Part shown: positions 10,995 through 46,357 of the stretch, piece by piece | Position numbering within the stretch: position 1 is the stretch's first letter | Layout: the number at the start of each line of letters is the position of its first letter | NCBI RefSeq assembly: GCF_000409775.1 | Contig: NZ_KE332377.1 | Location: forward strand, 1,026,073 to 1,090,072 | Reading direction: 5' to 3' | Source of the DNA: Litchfieldella anticariensis FP35 = DSM 16096 | Lineage (GTDB): Bacteria > Pseudomonadota > Gammaproteobacteria > Pseudomonadales > Halomonadaceae | Length of the DNA: 64,000 nucleotides | Made by a program: the position numbers and the translations under genes | Notes under the pieces: model-generated | Database searches by the model: none | What the model saw: the letters and a program-made list of their open reading frames with translations, nothing else | Told to the model about the DNA's origin: nothing

Positions 10995-11009
10995 TACTTC
11001 AACCCCCTA

Positions 11010-11079: not shown

Positions 11080-11084
11080 GTTGC

Positions 11085-11696: not shown

Positions 11697-11711
11697 AGTT
11701 TACGAGACGTG

Positions 11712-11792: not shown

Positions 11793-11813
11793 CTGGTACA
11801 TGGAGCTTGATGA

Positions 11814-12136: not shown

Positions 12137-12150
12137 AGCTTCCTGAATGC

Positions 12151-12729: not shown

Positions 12730-12741
12730 AGCTTCTCCTTT

Positions 12742-12866: not shown

Positions 12867-12912
12867 GCCAAAAACGACTATTGCCTGTTGATTCCGCGGC
12901 GGCTCATATGTG

Positions 12913-13551: not shown

Positions 13552-13574
13552 AATCTCTCATTAGCACCTATGCA

Positions 13575-13731
13575 TAACAGTGATTAGGTTGTACGTTTAT
13601 TTATCCGAATCATCGTGCCGGTTGTGTAACACCAATGAACGGGCTGGCTGCCTTTGCCGGACCGTCCGCTTAGGGTCGTCAGCTGCTACACCAGCTCCAT
13701 CAGCGTAACCTGAAGTTCGGCAGCCGGCCGA
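13575..13731 (-). repeat. Cassette leader repeat, copy F (split by IS)
   Basis: It starts with TAACAGTGATTAGG 24 nt before the 13551 start codon and matches copy D nearly perfectly from about 13672 to 13730. It is then broken by the IS element; the remaining piece (CAGGAGCTGACGTTCAGAAT to CCTCATG) resumes at 15414 and runs into attC site 7. Confidence 0.7.
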
Positions 13732-15413
13732 GGCTGTGTGAAAACACAAAAGCCCACCGCCTATACCTGTATCTGACGATGAAGCCATTCTCAGCGGCCA
13801 ATGAGACGCTTCTTAGCGCTTCCATCATCGCCACATCCGAGGTTATTCAAAATAATGCTTTTCGAGAAAGCTTCTCTGAAGAGCGTCAGAGGCCGCTACA
13901 GAAGCGATAAGGGCGGCAGGCACATTATGCCTGCATCGCCTGAATCAATCGCTTAGTGCCGAGGATGTTCATGACGCGTTTCATGTTGTAGGCCAGCACG
14001 TGAAGGCTCATTTCCGTGCTGACGTCTTGAGGGTTTTGGTTAGAAAATGCGTTGCTCCCATCCAGGCTTTCAGCGTCCCGAACGGATGCTCGACTGTCTG
14101 GCGCCTGAGACGCATCATTTCCGGCTTCTGATCCAGTCGACCTTGCACCGACTCAAGCACACTCTCATGCTCCCAACGCTTGATTCGTCGATATATCCCC
14201 GTGGTGCATTGTGGCTTCCTTGAACAGCCCGGGCAGGCGGAACTCCAGTAGCAATGTAGCACCTGTCCCTTTTCGACGTTCTTGAAACGCCAGATCAAGC
14301 GCTCTCCCGCCGGACAGCGATATTCGTTCCTTTCAGGCACGTACCGGAGTGCCTCTCTGGGAAACAGCCCTCGTGCCTGACTCGGCGAGGTCTTCGGTTT
14401 AGGGAGATAGGTGGTGATACCGGCCTCGTGGCATGCGAGTACCTCTTCCCCCTTAAAGTAGCCGCGATCAGCCACAACATTGAGATCGCTGGTGCCGGAG
14501 GCATCACGCGCCCGCTTGGCCATCCGGGAGAGTTGGCCACGATCACTGCCGACGTTGGTGACCTCATGGGCGATGATCAAGTGATGCCGGCTATCGACGG
14601 CCGTCTGCACGTTGTATCCCACCACCCCAGTGCCTCGCGTCGTCATGGAGCGAGCATCGGGGTCCGTCAACGACACCTGCTGGTCAGGTGCCTGGGATCT
14701 TCGGATTTCAATCACTTGCAGTTGCTGCACCTCTTCGGTGAGGGCGGCGATCTTTTCCTTCAGATGAGCGGTTTGCGCTTCCGTGACAGCAAGGGCTCCC
14801 TGGTCAGCCGAGTCGAGTTGGCGTAGGTAGTGTTCAATGCTCTTCTCGATCTCTTCTGCGCGCCGCTTCATCTTGGCGAAGGTAAAATTGCGGTCTCGAT
14901 TGTTGACCGCTTTGAACTTGCTACCGTCGATGGTCACGATCGCTTGTGAGAAGAGCCCCAGGCGCCGGCACAGCACGACAAAGTCTCGACAGGTGTCGCG
15001 GATCGCCTTGCCATTGTTCTTACGGAAATCAGCAATTGTCTTGAAGTCTGGTGTCAGGCGCTCCGTCAGCCACATCAGCTCGACATTGCGCTGCGCCTCG
15101 CGCTCCAAGCGGCGGCTGGATTGGATGCGATTGAGATAACCGTAGAGGTAGATTTTCAGGAGAACAGCGGGGTGATACGCGGGGCGACCGGTGGCATGGG
15201 GATCGACACCCTGGAACCCCAGATGTCTGAGGTCGAGGGCCTCAACGAAGGCTTCGATGGCCCGGACGGGGTTGTCTTCTGTGACGAAATCATCAAGGAA
15301 CTCTGGGAACAACGTGGCCTGAGACCGGGACTCACCTGAAACGAAGCGCTTCATCGGCACCTCCACGAGCTGTCACGGGTTGAGTATAGTGGGAGCCACG
15401 TTTTCACACAGCC
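13732..15413 (-). mobile_element. IS1182-family insertion sequence
   Basis: A 1682-bp element with perfect 14-bp terminal inverted repeats, GGCTGTGTGAAAAC at 13732 and GTTTTCACACAGCC ending at 15413. CGA/TCG just outside would extend the repeats by three bases. One transposase gene lies on the minus strand with a 5' promoter-like TATACT (15384-15389). It sits inside leader copy F. No long target duplication is visible; this family often targets small palindromes. Confidence 0.85.
13925..15354 (-). pseudogene. IS1182-family transposase, frameshifted near the C-terminus
   Basis: From MKRFVSGESRSQATLFPEFL (start 15354) the frame codes a full-looking DDE transposase: GRPAYHPAVLLKIYLYGYLN in the N-terminal domain, VTIDGSKFKAVNNRDRN, and VVADRGYFKGEEVL. 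It stops at 14008 after about 448 residues. Another frame right after reads STEMSLHVLAYNMKRVMNIL and ends at 13925, which is the usual C-terminus of the family. One base appears to be missing near 14024. Without these 36-38 residues the enzyme may be inactive. Confidence 0.85.
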
Positions 15414-15448
15414 TCGCCCAGGAGCTGACGTTCAGAATGACCTCATGT

Positions 15449-15510
15449 TACGCTCCGGTCATGTGTAGACGCCGCAAAGCGGTGGCTGTCACATGCACCG
15501 GCTTTTTATG
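15449..15510 (-). other. attC-like site 7 (degenerate)
   Basis: CCGGTCATGTG (15455) pairs with CACATGCACCGG (15490) with one extra base, the attC pattern. The outer cores have decayed: TTACGC replaces TAACGC and TTTTATGTG replaces GTTATGTG. The stop of the next gene overlaps the site, as at the intact ones. Confidence 0.65.
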
Positions 15511-16417
15511 TGGGTTCTTCATTTTCCTGCAGGTTAAGCAATATACCTTTCTCAGATTCAACTACAAGAGGTTGAAAGTTATCATCGAGCTTTAGTTTTA
15601 AATTAGGTGTTGTTGTATGCTCAGCCAAAGCTTTCTCAATAACTGAGTAGTTATCTCTAACACTCGCTTGAAGCTGCTTAACTCTATGAAGCAAAAAGTC
15701 TGATTGAATTACGGCCGAAACAGGATGCTTACTTGACGAAAACCCTCCACCCAAAGGCATGTATTCAGTCCCGTCGCTTACAACAACATTAGTATTTGTG
15801 GTTTTTTTCCGCAAAGTCCTCCTTTGCTCAGCAGTTAACACAGGTGCATCTGAGTCAGTCTTGAAAATAGAAGATTCAATTATATGAGGCCAATTATCAT
15901 GAATAATTTGAATTAAATCTGTGTTCGTCCACGTTACAACAGAACCATCAGGTTTCTCATGTTTCAGGATATCAAGCAGGTAAGCATTGTCTTCATTAAA
16001 GTAGACAAATAAAAGATCTTCACTACGATTTTCTTTGAAGTGCAAGTGATAGATTCCCCACTCTGACCTGAGTAAATCGGCATGCTTTGCTTGATTTAAT
16101 TTCTTAACTTTATTACTCAACAATCCATTGACGTCTTCGCCACTCTCAAGCTTTTGGACAATATTACTAATCTCATTCCGCTCCGCTAATTTACTTGAGA
16201 CATGAACATTCCATTGAATGATCGGAATTCTTCTTGAGTATACTGTGAAATAGTGAACCAGTAGATTGCTTAAGTTGTAGTATTCAATTTGACTTTTTAT
16301 CTGTTCACTGCGCTTATCTTGTGTTCGCAATTGCTCATATGTAGGAACTAATAGTCCAGCTTCTTTAAGTCTTCGTTGCAGTTCATCAGCCAGGTCAGAT
16401 AAAAAGTTAAAATTCAT
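15506..16417 (-). CDS. Cassette protein of 303 residues, unknown
   Basis: A soluble, charged protein. Residues 1-120 are helical and polar; about 120-170 hold a beta-rich block (SEWGIYHLHFKENRSEDLLF, NAYLLDILKHEKPDGSVVTW, then LIQIIHDNWP) that looks like a small independent domain. The C-terminal half is mixed. No catalytic motif is recognised. AAGGA upstream supports the ATG at 16417. It lies between attC sites 7 and 8 as a single-gene cassette. Confidence 0.6.
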   Translation of the reverse strand: MNFNFLSDLADELQRRLKEAGLLVPTYEQLRTQDKRSEQIKSQIEYYNLSNLLVHYFTVYSRRIPIIQWNVHVSSKLAERNEISNIVQKLESGEDVNGLLSNKVKKLNQAKHADLLRSEWGIYHLHFKENRSEDLLFVYFNEDNAYLLDILKHEKPDGSVVTWTNTDLIQIIHDNWPHIIESSIFKTDSDAPVLTAEQRRTLRKKTTNTNVVVSDGTEYMPLGGGFSSSKHPVSAVIQSDFLLHRVKQLQASVRDNYSVIEKALAEHTTTPNLKLKLDDNFQPLVVESEKGILLNLQENEEPT

Positions 16418-16465
16418 TTATGTACATCCTTGATGTAAATGTTGAAAATTGATGGCCATGGCGCA

Positions 16466-16546
16466 TAACGCTTGCAGCATGCGCGCCCTTGGAATGGAGC
16501 CGAAGGCGCAATGTACAGGGCGTCGCCGTGCCAGCACTGGTTATGT
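16466..16546 (-). other. attC recombination site 8
   Basis: An 81-bp site from TAACGCTTGCAGCATGCGCG to GCCAGCACTGGTTATGT. It differs from site 1 at only about five positions. The stop codon of the 16541-17005 gene is in the GTTATGT core. Confidence 0.9.
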
Positions 16547-17005
16547 GCTGCTACGGCGCTGCACTACGGTTTTATTAATGATGCGTCGATTAATCTTCTG
16601 CTTCCAGGCAATTTGCTTGGGCGACAATTTCCGTTTTCTGCGGGTGTCCATCAAGAACTTGTATTCCTGGTCGAAGATGTAGCCAAGCTTGAAAGCTTGA
16701 TAGATCAGGTCTTCGTTTGCATTGGCCGTGTCATCTGCCGCTATGCGGCGAAGCCCAGCGAAAAGATTGCCAGTCTCAATACCGATGAAGCGGTTAATAC
16801 AGACGTTACCGACGTACGTGGTGTTACCATTGATCTGGTTGCGGATGTAGCAATGCTCTTTGATGTCCTGGCCGCAGGGACAGCTATCAAATTCTTCGCT
16901 AACCTCCACCCCAATGAGCGCCCACTCAGTTCTCGCGGTATCAAAATCGTTTGCCACTGAAAGGGGGAGAATATGAGCAGCCAAACGTTCTCTATTGTGA
17001 TCCAC
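16541..17005 (-). CDS. Cysteine-rich cassette protein, probable zinc binder
   Basis: A 154-residue protein whose centre, SCPCGQDIKEHCYIRNQING then TTYVGNVCINRF, has four cysteines and a histidine spaced as in a small zinc ribbon. The C-terminal third is basic (MDTRRKRKLSPKQIAWKQKI), suggesting nucleic-acid contact. The start is GTG at 17005 behind GGGGAGGTAAGT; no ATG in frame fits. I do not recognise a named family. Zinc binding is inferred from cysteine spacing. Confidence 0.6.
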   Translation of the reverse strand: MDHNRERLAAHILPLSVANDFDTARTEWALIGVEVSEEFDSCPCGQDIKEHCYIRNQINGNTTYVGNVCINRFIGIETGNLFAGLRRIAADDTANANEDLIYQAFKLGYIFDQEYKFLMDTRRKRKLSPKQIAWKQKINRRIINKTVVQRRSST

Positions 17006-17026
17006 ACTTACCTCCCCATGAGCACA

Positions 17027-17102
17027 TAACGCTTCTTTAACGGGCCGGAAAAAGCACAGTTTTTGGAGGTCCAGCGAAGCGGCGTTGAACGATTTGTTAA
17101 GG
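17027..17102 (-). other. attC recombination site 9
   Basis: A 76-bp site. Read on the minus strand it begins TTAACAAATCGTTCAACGCC and ends CCCGTTAAAGAAGCGTTATG, very close to the classic short attC of resistance integrons in its outer arms. Confidence 0.85.
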
Positions 17103-17122
17103 GTATGGGGATGATTGGTAAT

Positions 17123-17569
17123 TTATTGGCTTTGTTGTGCATTGCTTTCTACTTCTTCTGGTACAGCTATTGGTTGACCGGATATCGGTTTTATTACCGG
17201 GATGCTAGCACTGTTCGTATTCTTTCCGAATGTGCCTTGCTGAATTTGATGCTCGGTGCTGCTACTGGGTGGCTGCTGCATGGTTGATGAGTCGCGCAAC
17301 CACCAGCCGAGAACAACGCCAGATAGACCGAATAGCCCCGCCATGATGCCGCCAATGATTACATTTTTGAGATTGATCTTTGCTTGGTCTTTTGCGAGAT
17401 GTTTTTTAATTGCTCGCTCAACCACTCTGTATTCGGCGGTGCCTTCTCTATGGCAAGAAAGTAACGACGCAAGCCCAGAGAATGAAAGCCTCTCTATATC
17501 AGAATCTGATGGCAAATGAAGTGAGGCTCTTTCAAATGCGTGCTGTGCGCTTTGTTCGGAATCGTGCAT
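17123..17569 (-). CDS. Cassette protein with one central membrane helix, unknown
   Basis: A 148-residue protein: about 65 cytoplasmic residues, a helix at roughly 70-92 (VIIGGIMAGLFGLSGVVLGW) and a Ser/Pro/Gln-rich tail. AAGGA lies before the ATG. The tail after the helix ends in a low-complexity region (PSSSTEHQIQQGTFGKNTNS). No family is recognised. It lies between attC sites 9 and 10. Confidence 0.6.
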   Translation of the reverse strand: MHDSEQSAQHAFERASLHLPSDSDIERLSFSGLASLLSCHREGTAEYRVVERAIKKHLAKDQAKINLKNVIIGGIMAGLFGLSGVVLGWWLRDSSTMQQPPSSSTEHQIQQGTFGKNTNSASIPVIKPISGQPIAVPEEVESNAQQSQ

Positions 17570-17582
17570 TATCGAACATCCT

Positions 17583-17646
17583 TAACGTTGCAATAAACCG
17601 CGTGGGCCGTCTTGCGGCACACGTCGGTTTGATTGCCTGGTTATCT
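17583..17646 (-). other. attC recombination site 10
   Basis: A 64-bp site: GCAATAAACCG-CGTG and CACACG-TCGGTTTGATTGC pair with two extra bases, bounded by TAACGTT and GTTATCT. The 17641 gene's TAA stop lies in the GTTATCT core. Confidence 0.9.
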
Positions 17647-18288
17647 CTGCTCCCCAACGGACGGAAACTCTAGTTCTTCGTATAAGCTTTGCAGGCATAT
17701 ATCTATATTGGAAATAGCTGATTCGTAAAGCGGTATAGAGCTTTTTGCCATTTCAGAACCACTTTCTTCACTAAATATTGCGATCTCCATGCTGCACATC
17801 ATTGAACAGTTATGGTGCAAGTCGGCTAATATCTTCCTAGATTTCTTTGATAGGAAAATAAAATCTTCCTGCTCTATTTCATGAAGCGCCGTAATATGTT
17901 GCAGAGCTGCTTTATCGACATCCTCTGCTAAGCCTTGGAGGTTTGGATGAAATTCTCCTCTTTCATCATATTCACCAAGAGCCGCCTCACAATATTTCTT
18001 AAAATCTACCAGCCTTTTTTGCAGTCTCTTGAACACCCTTATTTTTTCATCAAGAAGAATAGTGTTCTTTCTTGAGAACAGAGAAAGATCAACCTTTAAT
18101 CGCTCAATCTCAGCGACATACTCAACTTTTACGCCTTCGACTTTCCTCGTAATTTCTTCGACATCTTCCTTTGTTGCCAGATTTTTCCCTTTTTCTGAGG
18201 AGTAAGAAAATAAGTACTTTCGAAATAGGAAGAGACTGCCTATTCCGAGCAAAGCCAATAGTTGTAACCCAACCAAGATCCAATCCAT
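17641..18288 (-). CDS. Membrane-anchored coiled-coil protein, unknown
   Basis: A 215-residue protein with one N-terminal helix (WILVGLQLLALLGIGSLFLF) followed by a coiled coil (LATKEDVEEITRKVEGVKVE to about residue 75) and a helical C-terminal domain. Proteins of this layout are common in cassettes and islands but uncharacterised. It is the last array gene before the decayed region, so it is the first cassette in reading order. The ribosome-binding site is poorly placed (GGAG 14 nt away). Leader copy G lies 28 nt upstream. Confidence 0.65.
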   Translation of the reverse strand: MDWILVGLQLLALLGIGSLFLFRKYLFSYSSEKGKNLATKEDVEEITRKVEGVKVEYVAEIERLKVDLSLFSRKNTILLDEKIRVFKRLQKRLVDFKKYCEAALGEYDERGEFHPNLQGLAEDVDKAALQHITALHEIEQEDFIFLSKKSRKILADLHHNCSMMCSMEIAIFSEESGSEMAKSSIPLYESAISNIDICLQSLYEELEFPSVGEQR

Positions 18289-18315
18289 AAATTTACTCAG
18301 AGCTCCGGAAGGAGA

Positions 18316-18525
18316 TAACAGGTATTAAACTGCGTGCTCAATATTGACTTGAACGCTCACGCGCGTTCAACAATGTTATGCTGCACGCCGTTTTCTCCCT
18401 AACGTACCGAAAAATCTTGAAATTAAGTATAGTTCGGCAGTAAAACACCCATCATCGTGCATGCGCATAATGCGGATGAACGTGCCGTCTGCATTTTCCG
18501 GAAGGGCCGCTTTGGGTCGATTTCA
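18316..18525 (-). repeat. Cassette leader repeat, copy G
   Basis: TAACAGGTATTAAACTGCG at 18316 is followed by the hairpin TTGAACGC-TCACGC-GCGTTCAA (18352-18373), TTAAGTATAGTTCGGCA at 18423 and a GGGCCGCTTTGGGTCG tail like copy D. It is the copy joining features of E and D. Confidence 0.65.
18375..18402 (-). promoter_or_regulatory. Candidate promoter inside leader G
   Basis: On the minus strand TTAGGG (18397-18402) and CATAAC (18375-18380) are separated by 16 bp, matching the position and spacing of the pair in leader E. Confidence 0.35.
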
Positions 18526-18671
18526 GCCCTTCAGTTATAGCTAAGCTCCCTTGCAGGCCTGCTCGACCCTGACTGGCCAATCATGGATACATCCGCTCCA
18601 GCATTAGCTCTTTTGCAAATCGAAAATCTGCGCTTCCGCAAGTCAACGCCAATGAAGGTTGTTGGGATTTG

Positions 18672-18790
18672 ATCACCCCGAAAACACCTCTTCCGCTTCG
18701 TCTTCCAACACCGGCCCTATCACCATCGGCGCTCCTTTTGCCGTTTCCATGATTTTTCGGCCTGAAATCGTCGAGAGACGCGGCAGGGTT
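18672..18790 (-). pseudogene. Remnant of nucleoside deaminase 3' end
   Basis: About 110 bp match the 3' end of the intact deaminase gene (20334-20453) with roughly a tenth of positions changed, including GCTCCTTTTGCCGTTTCCAT. The translation ends VLEDEAEEVFSG then stop. The rest of the gene is absent. The divergence suggests a related allele rather than a recent duplication. Confidence 0.75.
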
Positions 18791-18791
18791 G

Positions 18792-18953
18792 GTCGAGTTT
18801 CTCTACGCGCACGTGGCCTTGGGCTTTATCGCTGTATGGCTGGCCGTCAGTGCTGCCAACCTCGGCGTGGGACTCGCCGCCGGCTACGCATTGGCCGAGG
18901 AGTTATTGGTGCATTTGTTCCTGTTCGGCATTCCGGCGCTGGCAGCCGTGTGA
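18792..18953 (+). pseudogene. C-terminal remnant of a membrane protein
   Basis: A plus-strand frame reads FLYAHVALGFIAVWLAVSAA, then LGVGLAAGYALAEELLVHLF, and stops at 18953. These are two membrane helices with no start codon, joined to the deaminase remnant at about 18795. The family is not identifiable from so short a piece. From 18954 to 19030 I see nothing. Confidence 0.55.
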
Positions 18954-19030
18954 GGGCCCTTATGGCACGCGACGTAATCCGTCACCCGCTCAAGGAGATG
19001 TCATGAAGCGCGACATGAGCTTAGGTAGCA

Positions 19031-20266
19031 TCAAAAACCGTATTCCTTGAGCTGCTGTGCTGTCATTGGCTTGCCAAGGAAATAACCTTGGGCCTTGTTG
19101 ACCCCCAGTTGGCGCAGCATGGCCATTTCAGCCTTGGTTTCCACGCCTTCCGCGATGATTTTGGTATTGGTCGCTTCTGCAAAAGCGATCAACCCAACCG
19201 CAAGCGCTCGACGTCGATGATCCGTATCAATGTTTCGTGTAATGCTCATATCGAGCTTGATGATGTCAGGAGACAAGGACAGGATATGACGAAAGCTTGC
19301 ATATCCCGCACCTGCATCATCCACTGCGAGTCGTACCCCTCGAGCCCGTAACGGCTCTAATGCTTCCGCAATATCTTCATAGCGTTCGATGATGGAGTGT
19401 TCCGTCAACTCGATGACTATCTGCTCTGCCGGCCATTCTTCCAAAACGCTCCTTACCTCAGCGTCAAGAAGTAATTTTGGGGACATATTCACTGAGAGAT
19501 AACAGTCCGCCGGCAAACGCTCGATCAGTGGCAGTGCCAGTTTGATGACCTGGATTTCGAGCGGTACATCCAGACCGACTTGACTGGCTTCTTTGAACCA
19601 AACATCCGGAGTTCGGACAGGTATCATCGAAAATCGGGCTAACGACTCGAACCCAACGAGTGCCTCTTTCGCCACGTTGTAGATGGGTTGATAGACCATG
19701 GAAATAGCGTCGCTGGAAAGAGCAGCGTTGATACGTGCTGTGATCTCATTCCTTTCCTGCCTTTGCTTGGCATCCCTCTCAACCTGATCGGCTGCAATCA
19801 CAGAAAAAGCACGCATCATGCCTAGATCGCGATCATCCAATGCAGTGTTGGGTTGGAAGCTAAAACAGCAAAGCGTCCCATAAAGACTACCATCGCTCAG
19901 CTTGATGGGAACACTTAGATGAGCTCCAACAGGCACTGCTGCCGTGGCAGGTAACTCTTGCGCTTCTTTATTCAGGCTCGCATCAGGAATAAACTCTGGC
20001 AACCGGCCATCGATAACCCGCTGACAATAGGTATCTTCTAGCGGGTTTCCCCCACCCTCTTGAACAGGCTGATCAGGGTATGGTGAATCCACATAGCGGA
20101 AGTTTCTTTGTCCGTTAGTGAACTCGGATATGAATGCCACGTCCATGTCCATGTGCTCGCGAATCACGGCCAGCATCCGCTTCAGAATACGTTCCGGTGA
20201 GTGGGCCTCCGCTGTTATAGTCTCGGCGACAACATCACTCATAGCATTCACAGACTTGAGTTCCAT
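19031..20266 (-). CDS. GAF-EAL domain c-di-GMP phosphodiesterase
   Basis: A 411-residue cytoplasmic protein: GAF-type sensor (about 25-165, AHLSVPIKLSDGSLYGTLCC) and EAL domain (about 180-408). The EAL signature is ESLARF; SVNMSP, VIELTEH, AVDDAGAGYAS, IIKLDMS, AEGVET and QGYFLGKP supply the metal and catalytic residues, so hydrolysis of c-di-GMP to pGpG is expected. AAGGAG lies before the ATG. It lies between a deaminase remnant and the intact deaminase, which suggests it came in with the rearrangement. Confidence 0.9.
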   Translation of the reverse strand: MELKSVNAMSDVVAETITAEAHSPERILKRMLAVIREHMDMDVAFISEFTNGQRNFRYVDSPYPDQPVQEGGGNPLEDTYCQRVIDGRLPEFIPDASLNKEAQELPATAAVPVGAHLSVPIKLSDGSLYGTLCCFSFQPNTALDDRDLGMMRAFSVIAADQVERDAKQRQERNEITARINAALSSDAISMVYQPIYNVAKEALVGFESLARFSMIPVRTPDVWFKEASQVGLDVPLEIQVIKLALPLIERLPADCYLSVNMSPKLLLDAEVRSVLEEWPAEQIVIELTEHSIIERYEDIAEALEPLRARGVRLAVDDAGAGYASFRHILSLSPDIIKLDMSITRNIDTDHRRRALAVGLIAFAEATNTKIIAEGVETKAEMAMLRQLGVNKAQGYFLGKPMTAQQLKEYGF

Positions 20267-37615: not shown

Positions 37616-38676
37616 ATGTTGTCTGAGCCCATTAGCAACCGGCAATAGACATCACGCAGATGCGGCCATTCCCAAGCCCTGGTATCAAGCGGCGCGGGGC
37701 GAGCATCGGGATATGTCAGCCAACGCTCGAGGTGGACCTCGAGGTCGTGCCGGGTTCCGTCATAGCGATACTCGCGTGGATAGAGTTCAGGGAAGCACAA
37801 GCGATCGGGTACCAACGGCAAGCAGCCACGTTGCGCAGCTTCCATGATCGATAGCCCCTGGAACTCGTGAAAAGTGGTGGAGACCACGATATCGGCACCT
37901 TCGAGTATCTCTCGGTAGGTGGCCCCGGGCTGCGGCCCCCAGCACAACAGATGCCCTTTCAGCCAGGCATGGGCGGCTTCGAATATCTCAGGCTGCTGGC
38001 GGAAGCGTTGGCCCATCACCGCTACCTCGAAATCGATCCCGCGGGTTTTCAGCCCATGCAGTGCCTGAAAGAAATCATCGGGATTCTTGTCGTATTCCCA
38101 GCGATGATTCCAAACGATGCGCCGCCCCCGTTTGGGAGGCATCGCCTCGTTGAGCGGCTCGATAGGCACGGGTACCACGCAGGCGTCGCGCGCCAACCGA
38201 TCCAATGTGGCCCCGATGCGCACCTTCTCCGGCATGCGTTTGAGAAATCGGCGAACGCCGCCGAGAAAACTGTCGCGATTATAGGTGGTGTTGAAGACCA
38301 CCTGATCCGCCGCGAGTGCCGAATAGAGGTTGACCATTTGCGCCTCGACTTCGGATTTCCGCTCGGCAGAAAGCGGGTAGGCGAACTGGTTCTCATGGAA
38401 ATAGACGATCTTGCGTGCACGCCCCAAATGCGGATGGAGTCCCACTAGCGTCGCCAGATCGACCATCGACGTGGCCAGAATCACGTCGTAGTGCCGTTCC
38501 AGTACATCGGATGCGTCGAGCGTCCAAGTCAGCGGGTTGCCGCGAATCCGCCAACTGAAGTGGCGAGGGGGCAGCTCCAGCAGTTGCCAGTCAATGGCAT
38601 CGACATGACGGCAAATCCCTTGTGCCCAATGCTGGTGGCTAACGGCTGCATAGGCCGATAACAATAACCCTTTCAT
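37612..38676 (-). CDS. tRNA-queuosine alpha-mannosyltransferase-like glycosyltransferase (DUF3524)
   Basis: 354 residues. The N-terminal DUF3524 domain is recognisable by LLLSAYAAVSHQHWAQGICR, RGNPLTW and YFHENQFAYPLSAERKSEVE; the C-terminal GT4-like half has VWNHRWEYDKNPDDFFQALH and ADIVVSTTFHEFQGLSIMEA (E-x7-E type). The family is that of the vertebrate QTMAN enzyme that mannosylates queuosine in tRNA-Asp; bacterial members are presumed to act on tRNA also, but this is inference. Its start touches the arsA remnant. Confidence 0.75.
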   Translation of the reverse strand: MKGLLLSAYAAVSHQHWAQGICRHVDAIDWQLLELPPRHFSWRIRGNPLTWTLDASDVLERHYDVILATSMVDLATLVGLHPHLGRARKIVYFHENQFAYPLSAERKSEVEAQMVNLYSALAADQVVFNTTYNRDSFLGGVRRFLKRMPEKVRIGATLDRLARDACVVPVPIEPLNEAMPPKRGRRIVWNHRWEYDKNPDDFFQALHGLKTRGIDFEVAVMGQRFRQQPEIFEAAHAWLKGHLLCWGPQPGATYREILEGADIVVSTTFHEFQGLSIMEAAQRGCLPLVPDRLCFPELYPREYRYDGTRHDLEVHLERWLTYPDARPAPLDTRAWEWPHLRDVYCRLLMGSDNI

Positions 38677-39080
38677 TAGAATCCCGCCGCCTCCAGTCGA
38701 CTGGCCAGGTCGTCGAGGATCTCCAAGCCATGTACATCGGTGGGCAGCAACGGTAACCGAGGGCGAGGCAGGCGCGCAAATTCATTATCGATGCGCGCCA
38801 GATAGCTGGCTTCCTGCTCGCGGCGGCGACGCAGGAACTCGCCGTCGGCCTCTTCGGGAATCACCCGATTGACCAGTGTCGCGGCAACCGGAATCCTGGC
38901 CGCTTCCAATGCTTCCACGGCACGCGCGGTCTCGAGAATCGGCAGGCGCTCCGGGGTCAATACGAACAGGAAGCTGCTCTCCTCGGTATTCTCGAGGCAA
39001 CGGCACGCTCGATGAGGTACATCCCCAAGCTCACGCTCGAAGACATCACCCTCGAGACTTTTCCAACCAAAATACGTCAA
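38676..39080 (-). pseudogene. ArsA-type ATPase, C-terminal remnant
   Basis: About 120 residues match the C-terminal part of an ArsA/GET3-like ATPase (SSFLFVLTPERLPILETARA; IPVAATLVNRVIPEEADGEF; ASYLARIDNEFARLPRPRLP). The P-loop, switch regions and most of the domain are missing, and the first 20 residues (MTYFGWKSLEGDVFEREL) do not fit the family. It is the 3' end of a gene truncated near 39020. It shares its stop with the start region of the mannosyltransferase-like gene, so an intact operon probably existed. Confidence 0.7.
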
Positions 39081-39442: not shown

Positions 39443-39571
39443 AGGCGCTATCGACCATGACCTGACAACGGTGCTCTCTGGCCGCGTCCCGCTGTGTTCT
39501 GCCAAGGTCGTCTTTCCCGCACTCGGCAAGCCCCACTAGACTGCCAGTAACGGCAGGTAAAGGAGAGGCGA

Positions 39572-39943
39572 ATGCCCAGGGTATTGGTGGTGGATGACGA
39601 ACCCAACATCGTGCTGTCACTGGAATTCCTGATGCAGCAGGCGGGTTTCGACGTGGTAACCGCTGGCGACGGTGAACAGGCGTTGGCCCGCGTCGCCGAA
39701 CAGGCACCTGACCTGATCCTGCTGGATATCAGCTTACCTGGTATCAGTGGCTTCGATGTCCTGGAGCAGTTACGTGCCGACCCTGTCCACGCACGGCTAC
39801 CGATCATCATGCTGACCGCTCATGGGCGTGAAGTGGAACGCGAGAAAGGTATGGCGCTGGGGGCCGATGACTATGTCACCAAACCGTTTTCCACCCAAGC
39901 GCTGGTCGACAAGGTCCAGGCGTTGCTAGACGAGGCACGCTAG
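39572..39943 (+). CDS. Single-domain response regulator (CheY-like)
   Basis: 123 residues, receiver domain only: acidic pair VVDDEPN near residue 8, phosphate acceptor Asp in LILLDISLPG near 52, Thr in MLTAHG and Lys in VTKPFS near 104. There is no output domain. AAAGGAGAGGCGA precedes the ATG. Its stop is immediately followed by the ATG of the next gene, so it is the first of a four-gene coupled operon and may be phosphorylated by the symporter-kinase. Confidence 0.9.
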   Translation: MPRVLVVDDEPNIVLSLEFLMQQAGFDVVTAGDGEQALARVAEQAPDLILLDISLPGISGFDVLEQLRADPVHARLPIIMLTAHGREVEREKGMALGADDYVTKPFSTQALVDKVQALLDEAR

Positions 39944-42007
39944 ATGGCACGAGGTACCCTGCCCAAGCGACAACGCCTGGTCGGGCTATGGTTGGCGATC
40001 AGCGGCGTGACGCTGTTCGGAGGGGCTTTTCTGGCATTGTGGCTGGATGCGGAACTGGCTCCAGATGGAGCCGCGCGACTGGCCATATGGCTCGCCTGCC
40101 TCTCCGCCGGGACTCTGACATTCACACTTGGTGCTGTGCTCGCTCGGCATTTGTTCGCGCCGCTGCGCCATCTGCATGTCTTGCTTGCCCGCCTCGCTGC
40201 CAGCCCCGATGCACGCGCTGACTATCCACCGGAAGGTTGGCTACGCGATCTGGGATCGGATCTCGACCGCATTCGTGACGGTTGGCGCTCCGATCGCGAA
40301 CGACTCGCCACGGCCCATACCGAGGGCGCACGTAGTGCCGCACGCATTCGCCAAGAGCTGGAAGCCCTGCTGCAGGTCCTTGATACACCATTACTGCTGT
40401 GCGATCGCCATCACCGGTTGATGCTGTTCAATCATGCCGCTGAGTCGCTATTCGAAGGGCATCCATGCCTGGGATTGGGCAAGCGCCTGGAGGCCCTGCT
40501 CGACACTAGCAGCCTGCAGGATGCACTACGTCGCCTCCCGGACGATGGCTCACCCCGCGAACTGCTGCTGCCCTACGGTAACCGTTGGCTGCGCTGTGTG
40601 CTGCGTCGCGTGCCGCAAAGCCATGGCGAAACCCTACTGACCCTGTCCGACACCACCGAGGCATGGGCCTGCGACATGGGTACCCGCACCAGCCTGACCG
40701 AAATAGTGCCAGCTCTGCGCCGCCATGGTGCCAGTTTGACCAGCGCTGCCGATGCATTGGGTAGCGTTACCGAGATTACGCCTGAAAGCCACACCCTGCG
40801 CGAGCGGCTCGAAGCTGTCATCACAGAGGAAGGCCAAGCCCTGGGCGATGAGATCGCCCATCTGGGAGCACTGCTCGATGATATGCAGCGCCAAGGCGAG
40901 CGATTGGTACCAATGTGGTCCAATGACCTCTTCCAGGCCCTCAATGAACGCCTGGCCATCAGCTCCCTGCATCTGGTCCCGATCGGCATGCCAGCGTGGC
41001 TGAAGGCTGATGCCCCAGCGCTCCTGTCCATGTTGGTGGCCTTGATTCAACGCCTGGCCGAATACAGCGGCAGCCACTCTTTCGAGGCCGAAATCCTACT
41101 CGGCAATAAACGGGTTTACCTCGATCTGATCTGGTCCGGCACACCAATACGCCAATACCAGTTGACCCAGTGGTGTGAACAACGCTTGGAAACCTTGCCG
41201 CTGTCTCCCTGTATCGGCGATCTGCTGCGCCAGCATGCAAGCGATATCTGGAGCTTGAGCGATGCCGATGGCCAGCATGCTCGGTTGCGACTGCCACTGC
41301 CAGCGGAGGAACGCGTTGGCGCACCACCCTCACGACCGGCACCACGTCCGGAATTTCATGACTTCGGCATCGCCGACCTACCACCACCGGATGCCGAACT
41401 GGCTGCCTGTCCTCTTCGCCAGCTCGAGATCGTTGCCCTCGACACGGAAACCACAGGGCTCGAATTGCGCCGTGGCGATTGCGTGATCAGTATCGGTGCC
41501 TGTCGTATCGTCAATGCTCGGCTGTTGGCCAACGATACCTTCGAGCAAAGAGTCGACCCAGGGCGTCCCATACCCCCTTCCAGCACTGCCATACATGGCC
41601 TGACCGACAGTGATGTCGCCGGCGCTCCACCACTGCCGGTGGTACTGCCCCGCTTTCGTGACTATATCGGCGACGCAGTGCTACTGGCCCATAACGCCGC
41701 CTTTGACATGCTGGCCCTGCAGCCGCCAGGCGCCGGCGTTGAATTCTGCATGCCAGTGCTCGATACCTTGTTACTGTCTCGTGCCCTGGATGCCGGGCTC
41801 GATGGCCACGATCTCGATACCCTGGCCGAGCGCTACGACCTCTCGATTCCCGATGGTGCGCGGCATACGGCGTTGGGCGACGCACGGCTCACCGCTGAGC
41901 TATGGCTGACCTTGCTGCCACGCCTTGAAGCCCGGGGTATCGATACCTTGGAAGCGCTTCTGACACTTCAGGCTGGAGCCTTCGACAAAGAGGACGCCAG
42001 CGCATGA
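39944..42007 (+). CDS. Membrane sensor fused to DEDDh 3'-5' exonuclease (DnaQ-like)
   Basis: 687 residues. Two N-terminal helices (GVTLFGGAFLALWL; LSAGTLTFTLGAVLARHLF), a HAMP-like segment, a PAS-like region (LQVLDTPLLLCDRHHRLMLF), then a helical region like a degenerate kinase core without a clear H-box. After a Pro-rich linker, residues 500-680 form an exonuclease: IVALDTETTGLELRRGDCVI, IHGLTDSDV, LLAHNAAFDMLALQ and HTALGDARLTAELW carry the D, E, D, H and D residues. Exonuclease-type genes are found near crbS in several genera. Substrate and reason for the fusion are unknown. Confidence 0.85.
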   Translation: MARGTLPKRQRLVGLWLAISGVTLFGGAFLALWLDAELAPDGAARLAIWLACLSAGTLTFTLGAVLARHLFAPLRHLHVLLARLAASPDARADYPPEGWLRDLGSDLDRIRDGWRSDRERLATAHTEGARSAARIRQELEALLQVLDTPLLLCDRHHRLMLFNHAAESLFEGHPCLGLGKRLEALLDTSSLQDALRRLPDDGSPRELLLPYGNRWLRCVLRRVPQSHGETLLTLSDTTEAWACDMGTRTSLTEIVPALRRHGASLTSAADALGSVTEITPESHTLRERLEAVITEEGQALGDEIAHLGALLDDMQRQGERLVPMWSNDLFQALNERLAISSLHLVPIGMPAWLKADAPALLSMLVALIQRLAEYSGSHSFEAEILLGNKRVYLDLIWSGTPIRQYQLTQWCEQRLETLPLSPCIGDLLRQHASDIWSLSDADGQHARLRLPLPAEERVGAPPSRPAPRPEFHDFGIADLPPPDAELAACPLRQLEIVALDTETTGLELRRGDCVISIGACRIVNARLLANDTFEQRVDPGRPIPPSSTAIHGLTDSDVAGAPPLPVVLPRFRDYIGDAVLLAHNAAFDMLALQPPGAGVEFCMPVLDTLLLSRALDAGLDGHDLDTLAERYDLSIPDGARHTALGDARLTAELWLTLLPRLEARGIDTLEALLTLQAGAFDKEDASA

Positions 42008-42213
42008 AAACGCCTCGCTTTGGCGAACGGCTGGTCGCCTTGATCGTACTCGCCGCGTTGCTGTTTTCACCGCCGTTGATTCTACCTTTCGATCGCACGG
42101 CAAACGGCGGACTGTCGTGGCTGCCACTCTATCTGTTCCTTGCCTGGGGCATCGTGATCGCACTGGCTGCCTGGCTGATGGAACACGGATATGACGATCA
42201 GGGGGGAGCATGA
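42004..42213 (+). CDS. Small two-helix membrane protein of the symporter-kinase operon
   Basis: 69 residues with two helices (VALIVLAALLFSPPLILPF; LPLYLFLAWGIVIALAAWLM). ATGA overlaps on both sides join it to the exonuclease fusion and the symporter-kinase. It resembles the small partner subunits found beside solute:sodium symporters, so a role as an accessory subunit is likely, by context only. Confidence 0.75.
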   Translation: MKTPRFGERLVALIVLAALLFSPPLILPFDRTANGGLSWLPLYLFLAWGIVIALAAWLMEHGYDDQGGA

Positions 42214-44993
42214 GGACTGACCCGTTGGTCCTCGGCGTCGCCTTCGGCTACTTGGCACTGCTGTTCGTGATTGCTGCCTGGGGTGACCGGCGTGCCGAGC
42301 AAGGGCGCTCGGTGATCGGCTCTCCCACCGTCTACACCTTATCGATCGCCGTCTACTGTACCGCCTGGACATTCTACGGCAGCGTCGGTCGTGCTGCCGA
42401 ATACGGCCCCAGCTTCCTAATGATCTATCTCGGGCCGACGCTGGCGATGCTGGCCAGCCCTTTCGTGATCCGCAAGATGGTGCGCATCGCCCGTGCCCAG
42501 CGCATCACCTCGATCGCCGACTTCATCAGCGCTCGCTACGGCAAGAGCGGCAGTCTCGGTGCTCTGGTGGCACTGATCGCCCTGATCGGCATCACGCCTT
42601 ATATCGCCTTGCAGCTCAAGGCCATCACGCTGAGTCACGCCGTGCTGATGAATTACCCCGAGCCGCCCGGGCTACGCCTGGTCGAAGAAGGCTTCTGGGC
42701 CGACAAGTCATTCTGGGTCGCCCTGGTGCTGGCGGTGTTCATCATTCTGTTCGGCACCCGCTATTTGGATGCTAGCGAACGCCACGAAGGCATGGTTGCC
42801 GCCATCGCCTTCGAGTCACTGGTCAAGCTCTTCGCTTTCCTGGCGGTAGGGATATTCACGGTTTTCGTCATGTTCAACGGCCCTGGCGATCTGTTTGCCC
42901 GCGCTGCCTCACACCCCGAGTTGAACGACGCCCTGAGTCTCGAAGCCGTGCCCGGTGGTGGGATAGGCTGGGTCGGCACACTGGTGCTGGCCTTCCTGGC
43001 TTTTCTCACCCTGCCACGGCAGTTCCAGGTGCTGGTGGTCGAGAACGTCGACGAGCGTCATATCAAGAGAGCCAGTTGGCTATTTCCCCTCTACCTGCTG
43101 GTCATCAATCTATTCGTGATTCCGATTGCCCTGGCCGGCGTGCTGCTCGGCGACCCCGGCGGCGACCCGGACAGCTTCGTACTGACGCTACCGCTCTCCG
43201 CAGGGCTCGATGACTTGCCGCTGCTGGTGTTCATCGGTGGATTGTCAGCCGCCACTGGCATGGTCATTGTCGAGACCATCGCGTTGTCGACCATGGTCAG
43301 CAACCACTTGGTAATGCCGCTGTTACTGCGCTCGCCACACCTGCACCTGGGCTCGCGTGGCAATCTATCGGGTTGGCTACTGGGCATCCGGCGCGTGGCG
43401 ATCGTGATGATCCTGTTGCTGGGCTATCTCTACCACGCCCTGATCGGCGATTCCTACAGCCTGGTGACCATCGGCCTGGTATCGTTCGCTGCCGCCACCC
43501 AATTCGCCCCTGCCCTGCTGCTTGGCCTGTACTGGCGTGGTGCCACCCGACTCGGCGCCACGCTGGGGTTGCTTGCGGGATTCGCGGTGTGGATCTATAC
43601 CCTGCTGCTGCCTGGCTTCGCCCAGTCCGGCTGGCTGGACGATACCTTCCTCCAGCACGGCCCATTCGGGCTGGCATGGCTGCGCCCCTATGCCCTGTTC
43701 GGCCTCGAGGGCTGGGACATCTACAGCCACTCGCTGCTGTGGAGCCAATTGGCCAATGCCGGTACCTTGATCGGTGTCTCGTTGTTTACCCAACAGAACC
43801 GGCTCGAGCAGACTCAGGCGGCGCTGTTCACAGGAGCCTTGCACACCTCGTTGGTTTACACCCCTCTGTGGCAGGGGCAAACCACCCGCGGCGAGTTGGA
43901 AGCTTTGCTCAACCGCTATCTGGGAGCCCCCGCCACTGAACGGATTCTCACTGGTCTCGCGCAACAGACGAGCGATGATCAAGCGGTTCCCCCTGAGGTC
44001 ATCGCGCGAGCCGAGCGGGCTTTGGCGGGTGCCTTGGGCAGTGCCTCGGCGCGCGTGTTGATCAATTCGGTGGTACGTGGCGAAGCCCTCGACCTGGAAG
44101 CGGTTCTCAGCATTCTCGACACTACCTCCCAGACACTCGAGTACAACCGCCAACTGGAACAGAAATCACGCGAACTGGCCAAGGTCGGCGAAGAGCTGCG
44201 CAGTGCCAATGAGCGCCTGCGCGAGTTGGACCGTTTGAAAGACGAGTTCGTGGCCATGGTCAGCCACGAGTTGAGAACCCCATTGACCTCGATTCGCGCC
44301 TTCGCTGAAATCCTGCGCGACAACCACGATCTGCCCGACGATAAGCGTCGTCATTTTCTCGATGTGGTGGTGTTGGAGAGCCAGCGCTTGTCGCGCCTGA
44401 TCGAGGAGATTCTCGACCTGGCACGGCTGGAAAGTGGCCGTCTGACGCTCCACCCCCAACGCCTGGATCTCGCGGCGTTGGTGCGCCAAAGCGTAGACGC
44501 CGTACATCGCGTGCAAGAAGAGCGCGGCGTGATGCTGGAGGTCGCCATCGACACCGACGAGGCGCCAGTCATCGGCGACCCGGACCGGCTCGAGCAGGTC
44601 ATCATCAACCTGCTCGACAACGCCGGCAAATTCGCTGCCGACGAAAATCCCCACGTATTGCTACGTCTGGAACGCCACAAGCAGCATTATCGTCTCAGCG
44701 TCGAGGACAATGGCCACGGCATCGGTGAAGACGAGCGGGAGCGGGTGTTCGAGAAGTTCCACCAGATCCAGCAGTATGGTGCTGGTAGTGGCCAGGTTCG
44801 CGGTCGTCCCCGCGGCAGCGGCTTGGGACTACCGATAAGCCGGGGCATCGTCGCCCACTTGGGTGGGCGGCTGTGGGTCGAGAATGCGTCCACTCTGGGC
44901 GGTGCCTGCCTGGTAATGGAACTGCCGATGGCGCCCGCTGGCATCGAAGTGCAGGAAGCAGTCAAGAAGAACAAGGCGCCGCCGGAGCGGTAA
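42210..44993 (+). CDS. Solute:sodium symporter-sensor histidine kinase (CrbS/MxtR/CbrA-like)
   Basis: 927 residues. About 13 membrane helices form an SSS transporter domain (residues 1-560; ADFISARYGKSGSLGALVAL). A linker coiled coil (ELAKVGEELRSANERLRELD) leads to a kinase: H-box FVAMVSHELRTPLTSIRAFA (His phosphorylated), N-box INLLDNAGKFAA, G-boxes VEDNGHGIGEDE and GSGLGLPISRG. There is no C-terminal receiver. The architecture and neighbours (exonuclease, DUF294 protein) match the acetate-switch kinase CrbS/MxtR, which senses or imports a small carbon source and acts through a LuxR-type regulator. Confidence 0.88.
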   Translation: MRTDPLVLGVAFGYLALLFVIAAWGDRRAEQGRSVIGSPTVYTLSIAVYCTAWTFYGSVGRAAEYGPSFLMIYLGPTLAMLASPFVIRKMVRIARAQRITSIADFISARYGKSGSLGALVALIALIGITPYIALQLKAITLSHAVLMNYPEPPGLRLVEEGFWADKSFWVALVLAVFIILFGTRYLDASERHEGMVAAIAFESLVKLFAFLAVGIFTVFVMFNGPGDLFARAASHPELNDALSLEAVPGGGIGWVGTLVLAFLAFLTLPRQFQVLVVENVDERHIKRASWLFPLYLLVINLFVIPIALAGVLLGDPGGDPDSFVLTLPLSAGLDDLPLLVFIGGLSAATGMVIVETIALSTMVSNHLVMPLLLRSPHLHLGSRGNLSGWLLGIRRVAIVMILLLGYLYHALIGDSYSLVTIGLVSFAAATQFAPALLLGLYWRGATRLGATLGLLAGFAVWIYTLLLPGFAQSGWLDDTFLQHGPFGLAWLRPYALFGLEGWDIYSHSLLWSQLANAGTLIGVSLFTQQNRLEQTQAALFTGALHTSLVYTPLWQGQTTRGELEALLNRYLGAPATERILTGLAQQTSDDQAVPPEVIARAERALAGALGSASARVLINSVVRGEALDLEAVLSILDTTSQTLEYNRQLEQKSRELAKVGEELRSANERLRELDRLKDEFVAMVSHELRTPLTSIRAFAEILRDNHDLPDDKRRHFLDVVVLESQRLSRLIEEILDLARLESGRLTLHPQRLDLAALVRQSVDAVHRVQEERGVMLEVAIDTDEAPVIGDPDRLEQVIINLLDNAGKFAADENPHVLLRLERHKQHYRLSVEDNGHGIGEDERERVFEKFHQIQQYGAGSGQVRGRPRGSGLGLPISRGIVAHLGGRLWVENASTLGGACLVMELPMAPAGIEVQEAVKKNKAPPER

Positions 44994-45009
44994 ATGGAAG
45001 AAGGACGAA

Positions 45010-45070
45010 GGAAGATGGAAGATGGAAGATGGAAGATGGAAGATGGAAGATGGAAGATGGAAGATGGAAG
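45010..45070. repeat. Eight tandem copies of GGAAGAT
   Basis: The 7-bp unit GGAAGAT is repeated eight times without interruption from 45010 to 45065 plus a partial unit, starting 17 nt after the kinase stop. Such arrays change copy number by slippage. On the RNA this gives a purine-only stretch with GGA motifs, which CsrA/RsmA-type proteins favour. Confidence 0.95.
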
Positions 45071-45116: not shown

Positions 45117-45235
45117 CTTCCAGGCGCGGAGCGCCGATCTTCAACCTTCTGACTTATAACTTCAAGGCACGAAGTGCCGTCTTCCTACTTCAAGCTGCGC
45201 AGCAGCGTTCTTTCAGCCTACCGCCTCGAAGAGGC
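45117..45235 (+). repeat. Three or four hairpin repeats with matched stem changes
   Basis: Units at 45117, 45160 and 45188 share CTTCNAG...TTC flanks. Their stems differ yet still pair: GGCGC-GGA-GCGCC, GGCAC-GAA-GTGCC, GCTGC-GCA-GCAGC. A fourth hairpin, GCCTC-GAA-GAGGC (45223-45235), overlaps the end of the DUF294 gene. Compensating changes point to selection for RNA or DNA structure. They lie between two convergent genes and may end both transcripts. Confidence 0.75.
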
Positions 45236-46357
45236 TGATTTTGCCAGACTGATCAAGGACTGGATCTGCTGCAGGTCGTGACGCAGCAGCAAGTGTTTAT
45301 CCTTGTCGAGCACCGCCATGTCGACCCAGCCATCGGCAAGCCGTCCCGCAGCCAGGCTATTGAGTTGGGACTCGAGAACGATGGCTTGCAGCCGCTCCAA
45401 GGCAGCGTTCAAGGCGCGGGCGCGTGAGACGTCCATGACGCCATGGCTGACCAGTTCGGCAAGCCGGGACTGAGTATCGACACTCCGGCCACCATGCGCC
45501 AGCGACAGCAGGCGGACAGCGCTGATCAATGGCATGAGCCCCTGGCGTTTCAAGTTGATCGCCCTTTCGTGTGGGGCACCTTCGTCGTCGCCGTTCAGCC
45601 GCCCTCGCCGGTCCAGAGCCACCGGCACCTCGTCGAGCAGCACCGCCATTTCATCGAGAAACAGCCCTGCACGCGGCATCAACCTGACCACTTCATCACG
45701 TAACGCGTCAGCAAGCCTGACATCACCGTAGACCGAAGCGAAGTCGAACAGGATATTCGACTGTTGGACACGCTTGACGCGCCGGTCGGCTGTCCATAGT
45801 TGCAACTGCTCACACCATTCGGAAAGACGCTTGCGCCACATTGGCCAGCTAGCCATCACGTGACCATTGCAAAAGGGAATGCCGGCAGTGTCGAGACGTG
45901 CTGTAAAGCGTTCCCCCAGTGCCTGGAAGTAACCATCGATCTCTCGGTGCCGGGCATCCGGATACTCGTCGATGATCATGGCATTGTCCTGATCGGGTCC
46001 CAGCAAGCTTTCGTGGCGTGCCCCGGATCCGAGTATCAATACACAGAACCCCACTGGTGGTTCACCCCACCCCGAGCCTTTCAGATCATTGAGCGAGTCG
46101 ATGATGGCGTGGCGATAGATCCAGTCATTGTGGTCGCTGAGCAACTGGCTGATGCGCCAAGCGGGAAGGTCGAGACGTTGCAACGCGTCGACCAGCGTGA
46201 ACTGCCATGTCTTGGCCTTGGCCAGGCTCGGTGTCGGCCCCAGCCGTTCGAAGGCATCCGCCAGAGGGGCAAGAAGCGGCGGCCACTGCCGCCAGTCGGG
46301 AAGCGAGTCATGAGTGAAAAGCTCACGCCAGGGCGAGGCACGGTGCAGCAGTCGCAT
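45218..46357 (-). CDS. DUF294-type nucleotidyltransferase-like protein
   Basis: 379 residues. Central nucleotidyltransferase core VLILGSGARHESLLGPDQDN carries the G-S...D-x-D pattern of GlnD-like enzymes. The C-terminal DUF294_C region begins about residue 240 (AGLFLDEMAVLLDEVPVALD). The usual N-terminal cyclic-nucleotide and CBS domains are absent, so this is the short form. Homologues next to crbS-like kinases occur in Vibrio and Pseudomonas. The transferred group and target are unknown. It converges on the symporter-kinase operon. Confidence 0.8.
   Translation of the reverse strand: MRLLHRASPWRELFTHDSLPDWRQWPPLLAPLADAFERLGPTPSLAKAKTWQFTLVDALQRLDLPAWRISQLLSDHNDWIYRHAIIDSLNDLKGSGWGEPPVGFCVLILGSGARHESLLGPDQDNAMIIDEYPDARHREIDGYFQALGERFTARLDTAGIPFCNGHVMASWPMWRKRLSEWCEQLQLWTADRRVKRVQQSNILFDFASVYGDVRLADALRDEVVRLMPRAGLFLDEMAVLLDEVPVALDRRGRLNGDDEGAPHERAINLKRQGLMPLISAVRLLSLAHGGRSVDTQSRLAELVSHGVMDVSRARALNAALERLQAIVLESQLNSLAAGRLADGWVDMAVLDKDKHLLLRHDLQQIQSLISLAKSASSRR

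Follow-up and report, generated by a model that had tools for sequence, protein, structure and literature searches.

Can the signal of a nutrient-sensing two-component system be handed to a nuclease? The question is raised by a four-gene operon in a 64,000-nucleotide stretch of DNA (hereafter the window; positions are counted from its first letter) from contig 1 of the 5.07-Mb genome of Litchfieldella anticariensis FP35 (NZ_KE332377.1, positions 1,026,073 to 1,090,072), a member of the Halomonadaceae. The outputs of two-component systems are mostly transcription factors, cyclic-di-nucleotide enzymes and chemotaxis proteins. All four genes lie on the + strand and encode, in order, a lone receiver of 123 residues (39572..39943), a 687-residue fusion of membrane helices, PAS domain, dead histidine-kinase core and DEDDh exonuclease (39944..42007), a small peptide of 69 residues (42004..42213) and a 927-residue SLC5-STAC-histidine kinase that has neither PAS domain nor receiver (42210..44993). 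A model that saw only the letters and their open reading frames (the sequence-only reading) had described four genes joined by 0–4 nucleotides, and this is how the reading frames lie: the TAG of the receiver gene abuts the ATG of the fusion gene (0 nucleotides), and two 4-nucleotide ATGA overlaps follow. We propose that the operon is a two-component branch with an enzyme, not a transcription factor, as its output, in which the signal would start at the SLC5 kinase and pass through receiver and dead core to the exonuclease; we give this account roughly an even chance. The window has the genes of the enzyme, its presumed regulator and its presumed sensor next to one another, and nutrient signals may be passed in this way to a nuclease, besides a transcription factor.

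The fusion protein begins with two membrane helices, joined by a short loop, that run into a HAMP-like helix (residues 8–86; 39965..40201, + strand), as indicated by hydropathy and by a structure model with helices at 8–38 and 42–86. A PAS domain follows (residues 146–239; 40379..40660, + strand); it is suggested by a weak PAS_4 match in the window fusion (2.3e-4, under the Pfam cut-off), by relatives, since the PAS model scores above its cut-off in five of the ten that were scanned, and by the structure model. Thus, of the two membrane helices and HAMP/PAS-like parts named by the sequence-only reading, the helices and the PAS domain stand, and the HAMP-like label is based on the model helices, the window fusion having no Pfam match to HAMP. 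The parts listed by that reading are real, but between the PAS domain and the exonuclease it missed a dead histidine-kinase core at about residues 238–455, composed of a helical hairpin (238–320) and an ATPase-like domain (322–455; together 40655..41308, + strand).

Residues ~240–490 of the window fusion give zero Pfam matches at E 1, but a Pfam scan of ten relatives returned weak HisKA scores in four (best 0.00089). The named relatives are 80 loci, the best 80 of 466 when ranked by their likeness to one relative that does not belong to the family, and so not a random sample. A 50-row alignment (A6) consists of the window and 49 of these 80 loci (L103, L159 and L170, among others, being excluded), and a 17-row family alignment (A1) excludes L042. 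When residues 238–460 of the 50-row alignment were compared by hhalign with the core of the neighbouring SLC5 kinase, the probability was 98.3% over 209 columns, whereas the seven controls (two unrelated profiles, five column shuffles) stayed at or below 1.24%. A model of the whole fusion had a mean predicted local distance difference test score (pLDDT) of 85.6 and a predicted template modelling score (pTM) of 0.41; the dead-core part modelled alone had a pLDDT of 91.1 and a pTM of 0.74, and took the form of a two-helix hairpin plus an ATPase-like fold. All 50 rows listed by Foldseek for this part are histidine kinases or kinase-core proteins, among them HK853-RR468 complexes, DivL and RetS. 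A second aligner returned the same kind of protein, including the PrrB ATPase domain (Z 13.8, root-mean-square deviation 2.9 over 131 residues). By profile and model, then, the fusion holds a kinase-fold core, consisting of a helical hairpin and an ATPase domain, between the PAS domain and the exonuclease.

That core is dead by its residues, having lost both the acceptor histidine and the ATP boxes. A phospho-accepting histidine is present at the hairpin site in none of the 50 rows and in none of the 17 family rows, glutamate occupying the position in 31 of the 50; the full set of N, G1 and G2 boxes is likewise found in none of the 50 sequences, which contain two isolated single-box matches. 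The overall kinase fold of the model would allow the fusion to be an active histidine kinase whose acceptor site is unusual, but the missing histidine and boxes rule this out, and we regard the explanation as close to refuted. The core has its own set of conserved residues, namely W397 (50 of 50 rows), W410 (48), H431 (49) and W436 (47). It resembles the pseudo-histidine kinases DivL and RetS, and also NifL, in possessing a kinase-shaped core, and all three are among its fold matches; in these three proteins the core serves binding and not phosphotransfer, and, set against them, the window core has lost the acceptor histidine and the ATP boxes. None of the three, to our knowledge, carries an exonuclease.

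Such likenesses open a second explanation, in which the dead core is a modulator of the RetS or DivL type that binds the SLC5 kinase or its receiver and thereby inhibits or steers it, while the exonuclease serves mainly as a nucleotide sensor or an anchor. The conserved residues particular to the core and the presence of RetS and DivL among the fold matches speak for it, and the state of the exonuclease bears on it directly. The DEDDh 3'-5' exonuclease domain (residues 495–663; 41426..41932, + strand) gives a Pfam RNase_T match of 8.8e-24 at residues 497–653, and its five catalytic residues (D500, E502, D588, H641 and D646) are retained in all 50 alignment rows and in 80/80 of the named relatives. 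The complete DEDDh exonuclease of the sequence-only reading was thus correctly recognised, and on paper the enzyme looks alive. Its fold matches include 9qpc (a DNA polymerase, which we take to be PolC from its size and name), DinG, Pol III epsilon and ExoX, at Z 20.5–24.2, with 25–33% identity across the top nine rows. It shares the DEDDh fold and residues with Pol III epsilon, DinG, ExoX and PolC-type domains, none of which, as far as we know, has membrane, PAS or kinase-like parts. In an exonuclease-domain tree of fused and separate enzymes, long branches and weak deep forks left the groups unresolved, and the tree did not resolve from which subfamily the fused exonuclease came.

In three genomes of one genus the whole fusion is kept with its dead core, although the catalytic residues of the exonuclease are lost; by profile comparison the altered tail still matches this exonuclease, with a probability of 96.9%. 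A modulator role would explain why such a protein persists. However, neither an SLC5 kinase nor a receiver was found in the 12–18 kb fetched around these three genes, and the retention of five catalytic residues in every one of the 80 named relatives is hard to explain without catalysis, so that on balance we doubt that modulation is the main function. The doubly dead relatives (L206, L207 and L208, in genomes G350, G108 and G246) are 682–691 residues long.

The receiver and the SLC5 kinase are intact in their residues. The lone receiver (Response_reg, 3.7e-32) has no output domain, as the sequence-only reading had stated, and in the aligned receivers the acceptor D52 is found in 66/68 and K104 in 68/68. 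The window kinase has strong Pfam matches to HisKA and HATPase_c, and its SSF score of 21.0 bits falls just short of the 22.8 that Pfam requires. When compared with the CrbS-like protein of the same genome, however, this symporter-kinase of the sequence-only reading is 47% identical in the SLC5 part and 38% in the linker part. By homology it carries an SLC5 domain, a STAC linker and a kinase core in one chain, the STAC linker being assigned from homology and position alone. The H, N, G1 and G2 boxes are intact in 41 of the 42 SLC5 kinases of the named loci. Judged by their residues, then, kinase boxes, receiver acceptor aspartate and exonuclease site are intact along the proposed route, and the dead core is without kinase residues.

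The 69-residue peptide, which is found in 15 of the 17 family loci that were fetched, has two hydrophobic stretches, as judged by eye. CbrX, a two-helix peptide of ~58 residues, has a gene that overlaps an SLC5 kinase gene (PMC6591292, PMC13022988); it is translationally coupled to CbrA (PMC6591292) and has been seen bound to CbrA by cryo-EM (PMC13022988). The window peptide is CbrX-like in size, in position and in the 4-nucleotide overlap with the kinase gene. The operon is like CbrX-CbrA/CbrB in having a small overlapping peptide, a candidate CbrX counterpart, upstream of the kinase, and like both CbrX-CbrA/CbrB and RpuS/RpuR in its SLC5-STAC kinase. It is unlike them in that CbrB and RpuR, with which those kinases are paired, regulate transcription (PMC13022988, PMC9100948), and the passages drawn on from PMC6591292, PMC13022988 and PMC9100948 make no mention of an exonuclease fusion for either system. 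Searches of the open-access PMC literature, not all of them aimed at the fusion, brought up no description of it, which does not prove that there is none.

The sequence-only reading placed the operon at a crbS locus, which does not agree with the kinase. CrbS is a hybrid kinase with PAS domains and a receiver, a LuxR-type partner and a separate exonuclease. The window kinase lacks the PAS domains and the C-terminal receiver, no LuxR-type CrbR partner lies beside it (its neighbour is the 123-residue lone receiver), and a CrbS-like protein is encoded on another contig of the same genome. Identity with CrbS is thus ruled out, and by these features the window kinase is an SLC5 paralogue separate from CrbS. 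The CrbS-like locus (L099) encodes a 1,339-residue SLC5-PAS-PAS-kinase-receiver protein, a LuxR-type regulator that acs adjoins, an SSF symporter that we take, by its place, to be of the acetate type, a DUF294 protein that carries cNMP and CBS domains, and a 208-residue exonuclease as a protein of its own. An open reading frame of 1,315–1,372 residues with a CrbS-like SLC5 part is present in 37/37 family genomes. DnaQ-like exonucleases do occur at both CrbS-type loci inspected (L099 and L100), as the sequence-only reading had supposed. The window operon is like CrbS/CrbR (MxtR/ErdR) in its SLC5-STAC kinase, in the DUF294 gene and DEDDh exonuclease nearby and, within the Halomonadaceae, probably in a shared promoter box; it differs in that its receiver is lone and its exonuclease is fused to a dead kinase. 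Because of the window operon and L099, exonuclease, DUF294 and SLC5 protein are seen together in two forms within one genome.

The DUF294 nucleotidyltransferase gene of the window (45218..46357, − strand, 379 residues; PF03445 1.5e-30, PF10335 7.8e-24) lies downstream of the kinase gene and is part of the neighbourhood of the operon. Unlike the copy at the CrbS locus, its product is without CBS and cNMP domains; G110, S111, D122, Q123 and D124 are invariant in ten rows, so that the GS...DQD site is retained. The extent of this neighbourhood was measured in 56 well-flanked loci of the 80 (at least 5 kb on each side). A receiver is adjacent to the fusion in 46/56 (48/56 by another rule; with the bit threshold it is the lower figure, which is used here), any SLC5 protein is near it in 52/56 (33 being SLC5 kinases) and DUF294 in 41/56. 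The SLC5 protein of the other 19 is not an SLC5 kinase; in 16 of these 19 loci a symporter shares 60% identity or more with the one at L116 or at the CrbS-type locus. Receiver, SLC5 protein and DUF294 are all present in 33/56, and two loci (L161 and L175) have none of the three. Over the full 80 the counts are 65 for the receiver, 71 for SLC5 proteins (42 kinases) and 57 for DUF294. The figures for the 56 loci stand against 2, 0 and 0 in 20 random 18-kb control regions, which came from gammaproteobacterial genomes only, other than those of the 80 loci. The receiver match ends at most 70 bases before the fusion start in 59 of 66 measured loci, under a start-choice rule that favours short gaps. 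Furthermore, the order receiver, fusion, 69-residue peptide, SLC5 kinase is conserved as a syntenic set in Halomonadaceae loci; in Vreelandella sedimenti and Billgrantia saliphila it is as in the window, with receivers 81–83% identical. Given this family synteny, and its return in named proteobacterial genomes when random regions serve as the control, the gene set exceeds chance, and the gene neighbourhood bears out the tie that the sequence-only reading had drawn between a membrane exonuclease and an SLC5 sensor kinase.

The frequency of DUF294 suggests a third explanation, namely that the exonuclease reverses DUF294: a nucleotide attached by DUF294 to a partner, be it the receiver, the SLC5 protein or another, would be taken off again by the DEDDh enzyme, and uptake would be set by the cycle. 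The site of DUF294 is kept, its gene accompanies the fusion in most of the well-flanked loci and, at the CrbS-type locus, stands next to the unfused exonuclease, and in Pseudomonas putida pp_0353, the unfused exonuclease of the CrbS regulon, forms one operon with pp_0354 (PMC9927547). According to the same source, deletion of pp_0353 leads to poorer growth on pyruvate but not on acetate, whereas deletion of pp_0354 is without growth phenotype, and its authors speculate on mRNA decay as the role of pp_0353 (PMC9927547). The exonuclease of crbS loci, which the sequence-only reading regarded as unsolved, does lack a mechanism, but with this pyruvate phenotype it is not wholly unstudied. The differing phenotypes of the two deletions argue against reversal, as does the lack of DUF294 in 15/56 loci within the stretch covered. 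DEDDh enzymes, moreover, are known for acting on nucleic acids. We see only a slim chance for this explanation.

In a set of 58 genomes (37 of the family and 21 of other members of the order), the fusion occurs in 18 genomes, every one a family member; 16 of these, and no other genome, have the window-type kinase as well; the two with fusion but without this kinase are G014 and G024, the G024 fusion being divergent and in two pieces. The sequence-only reading expected fusion and kinase to occur together in other genomes, and among 369 sampled gammaproteobacterial genomes they do so in 15, with the kinase alone in 5, the fusion alone in 3 and neither in 346 (Fisher 6.6e-20, kinship uncorrected; two candidates per genome were scored). 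Here 21 genomes apparently had the fusion and 18 were counted, three being excluded for a dead exonuclease. All five kinase-only loci (L201–L205) have a receiver match beside their window-type SLC5 kinase; one of them, L202, has in addition a weak exonuclease match nearby (25%, 48 bits), together with DUF294 and a symporter. The named-genome relatives among the best 80 of 466 are labelled alpha-, beta- and gammaproteobacteria, Magnetococcales and Desulfuromonadales, and a few metagenome bins among them carry the labels Nitrospirota, Acidobacteriota and Caldilineaceae, which are unchecked. The combination of SLC5 kinase and dead-core exonuclease fusion is found in many proteobacteria. Two genomes (G125 and G255) have a second copy of the fusion (L095 and L096) beside a distant (27%) SLC5 symporter-like gene, with no receiver and no SLC5 kinase in the stretch fetched.

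A fourth explanation takes the fusion to be a membrane-bound enzyme of RNA or DNA turnover with a sensor of its own, whose proximity to SLC5 genes reflects only co-expression on acids. It is favoured by fusions that lack a window-type kinase, as in 3 of the 18 gammaproteobacterial genomes and in G014, and by a promoter box that the operon has in common with acs in the family. The direct adjacency of the receiver in 46 of the 56 loci, and the short gap before the fusion even with the rule that favours it, are difficult to accommodate, and we judge this explanation quite unlikely.

The promoter box lies upstream of the receiver gene. An activator-site-like element at 39497..39513 (+ strand), TTCTGCCAAGGTCGTCT, with the box CCAAGGTC, resembles the ACTU box of CrbR and is followed by a −10-like element TAGACT at 39537..39542 (+ strand). 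A CCWWGGTC core followed by TAGACT at the near-fixed spacing of 22–24 bases from the end of the 17-mer is found in 16 of 17 Halomonadaceae receiver promoters, and the core alone in 0.74% of random 150-bp pieces. The transcription start would lie at about 39549, which puts the box at −52 to −36. The ACTU box, a conserved inverted repeat just upstream of the −35 region, is the site through which CrbR acts, and at P. fluorescens acs it is reported at −52 to −36 (PMC5715377). The window box has a matrix p of 0.0053 against random pieces, and none of 200 dinucleotide shuffles scores as high. The random pieces are mostly coding and their G+C content is above that of promoters, which flatters p, and the shuffles were added for this reason. 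In these 17 genomes the regions upstream of acs also yield a matrix site, at p ≤0.02 in all 17 and at ≤4/200 shuffles in 16; in nine of the 17 (L212–L228) a second similar site occurs ~60–70 bases further upstream of the acs box. In the 15 receiver loci in which the footprint is the best matrix match, p ranges from 0.003 to 0.14. A sigma-70 scan gave no promoter at 39497–39542 by its rule, and the promoter claim rests on the footprint. On these grounds a link of the operon promoter to CrbR is likely, but not proven.

Several observations weigh against the proposed route from SLC5 kinase to exonuclease. At the footprint the matrix p is below 0.02 in only 6/17 receiver promoters, and ≤4/200 shuffles score as high in 6/17, L041 being among these by virtue of another site. 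Position 5 is G in most receiver loci but A in the 12 ACTU sites that were used. Outside the family the box is not enriched (2/63 at p <0.01; 4/65 if two named family members are included), and the matrix is unconvincing in four 300-bp CrbS-type pieces upstream of DUF294 or symporter genes, which may miss the promoter. An SLC5 kinase is not seen nearby in 23/56 well-flanked relatives, and a recognised receiver is not adjacent in 10/56. The G014 locus consists of a receiver and an intact fusion without kinase, peptide or DUF294, and no window-type kinase was found elsewhere in that genome. Lastly, with a pTM of 0.41 the mutual placement of the domains is not fixed by the whole-fusion model. Because of G014 and the 23 relatives, the window-type kinase cannot be the sole input; a different input kinase is needed in G014 and wherever a locus has an SLC5 transporter without an SLC5 kinase. 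The identity of the input kinase and the substrate of the exonuclease are the weakest steps.

With these reservations, the two-component branch would work as follows. In the Halomonadaceae, a CrbR-type regulator would turn the operon on during growth on acetate. The SLC5 kinase would sense a small carboxylate and phosphorylate the lone receiver, which would then dock on the dead kinase core in the manner of receivers on kinase hairpins; we propose this docking because HK853-RR468 complexes are among the fold matches and because the receiver is adjacent in most loci. The resulting movement, combined with the membrane and PAS input, might raise or lower the activity of the exonuclease at the membrane, and the target of the enzyme would be a nucleic acid or nucleotide that affects the uptake or use of C2–C3 acids, together with DUF294. 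A bolder version, which we rate a long shot, has an SLC5 transceptor kinase and lone receiver acting through the dead core on an exonuclease that forms, with DUF294, a cycle of adding and removing a nucleotide on a protein or small RNA gating acetate or pyruvate uptake, and makes of this a widespread, undescribed class. If the two-component branch is real, its dead kinase core, by coupling receiver and nuclease, would link nutrient sensing in a new way to the turnover of RNA, DNA or nucleotides. It would also provide a directly testable setting for the unexplained exonuclease of the CrbS/MxtR regulon, with its pyruvate phenotype that lacks a mechanism (PMC9927547).

Outside the operon, about 11 copies of the 7-base unit ATGGAAG occupy 44994–45070, directly 3' of the stop codon of the kinase gene, and imperfect palindromes, recognised by eye, follow these repeats and reach ~45220. 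Upstream, an open reading frame at 38676–39080 (− strand) matches the final third only of ArsA/GET3-type ATPases (profile 197–303 of 305) and looks like a remnant of a once longer gene. Further away, the G+C content drops to 44–53% in the five 2-kb steps of 10001–20000 of the window, as an acquired island would show; the steps of 2001–10000 and those that begin at 20001 have 55–63%.

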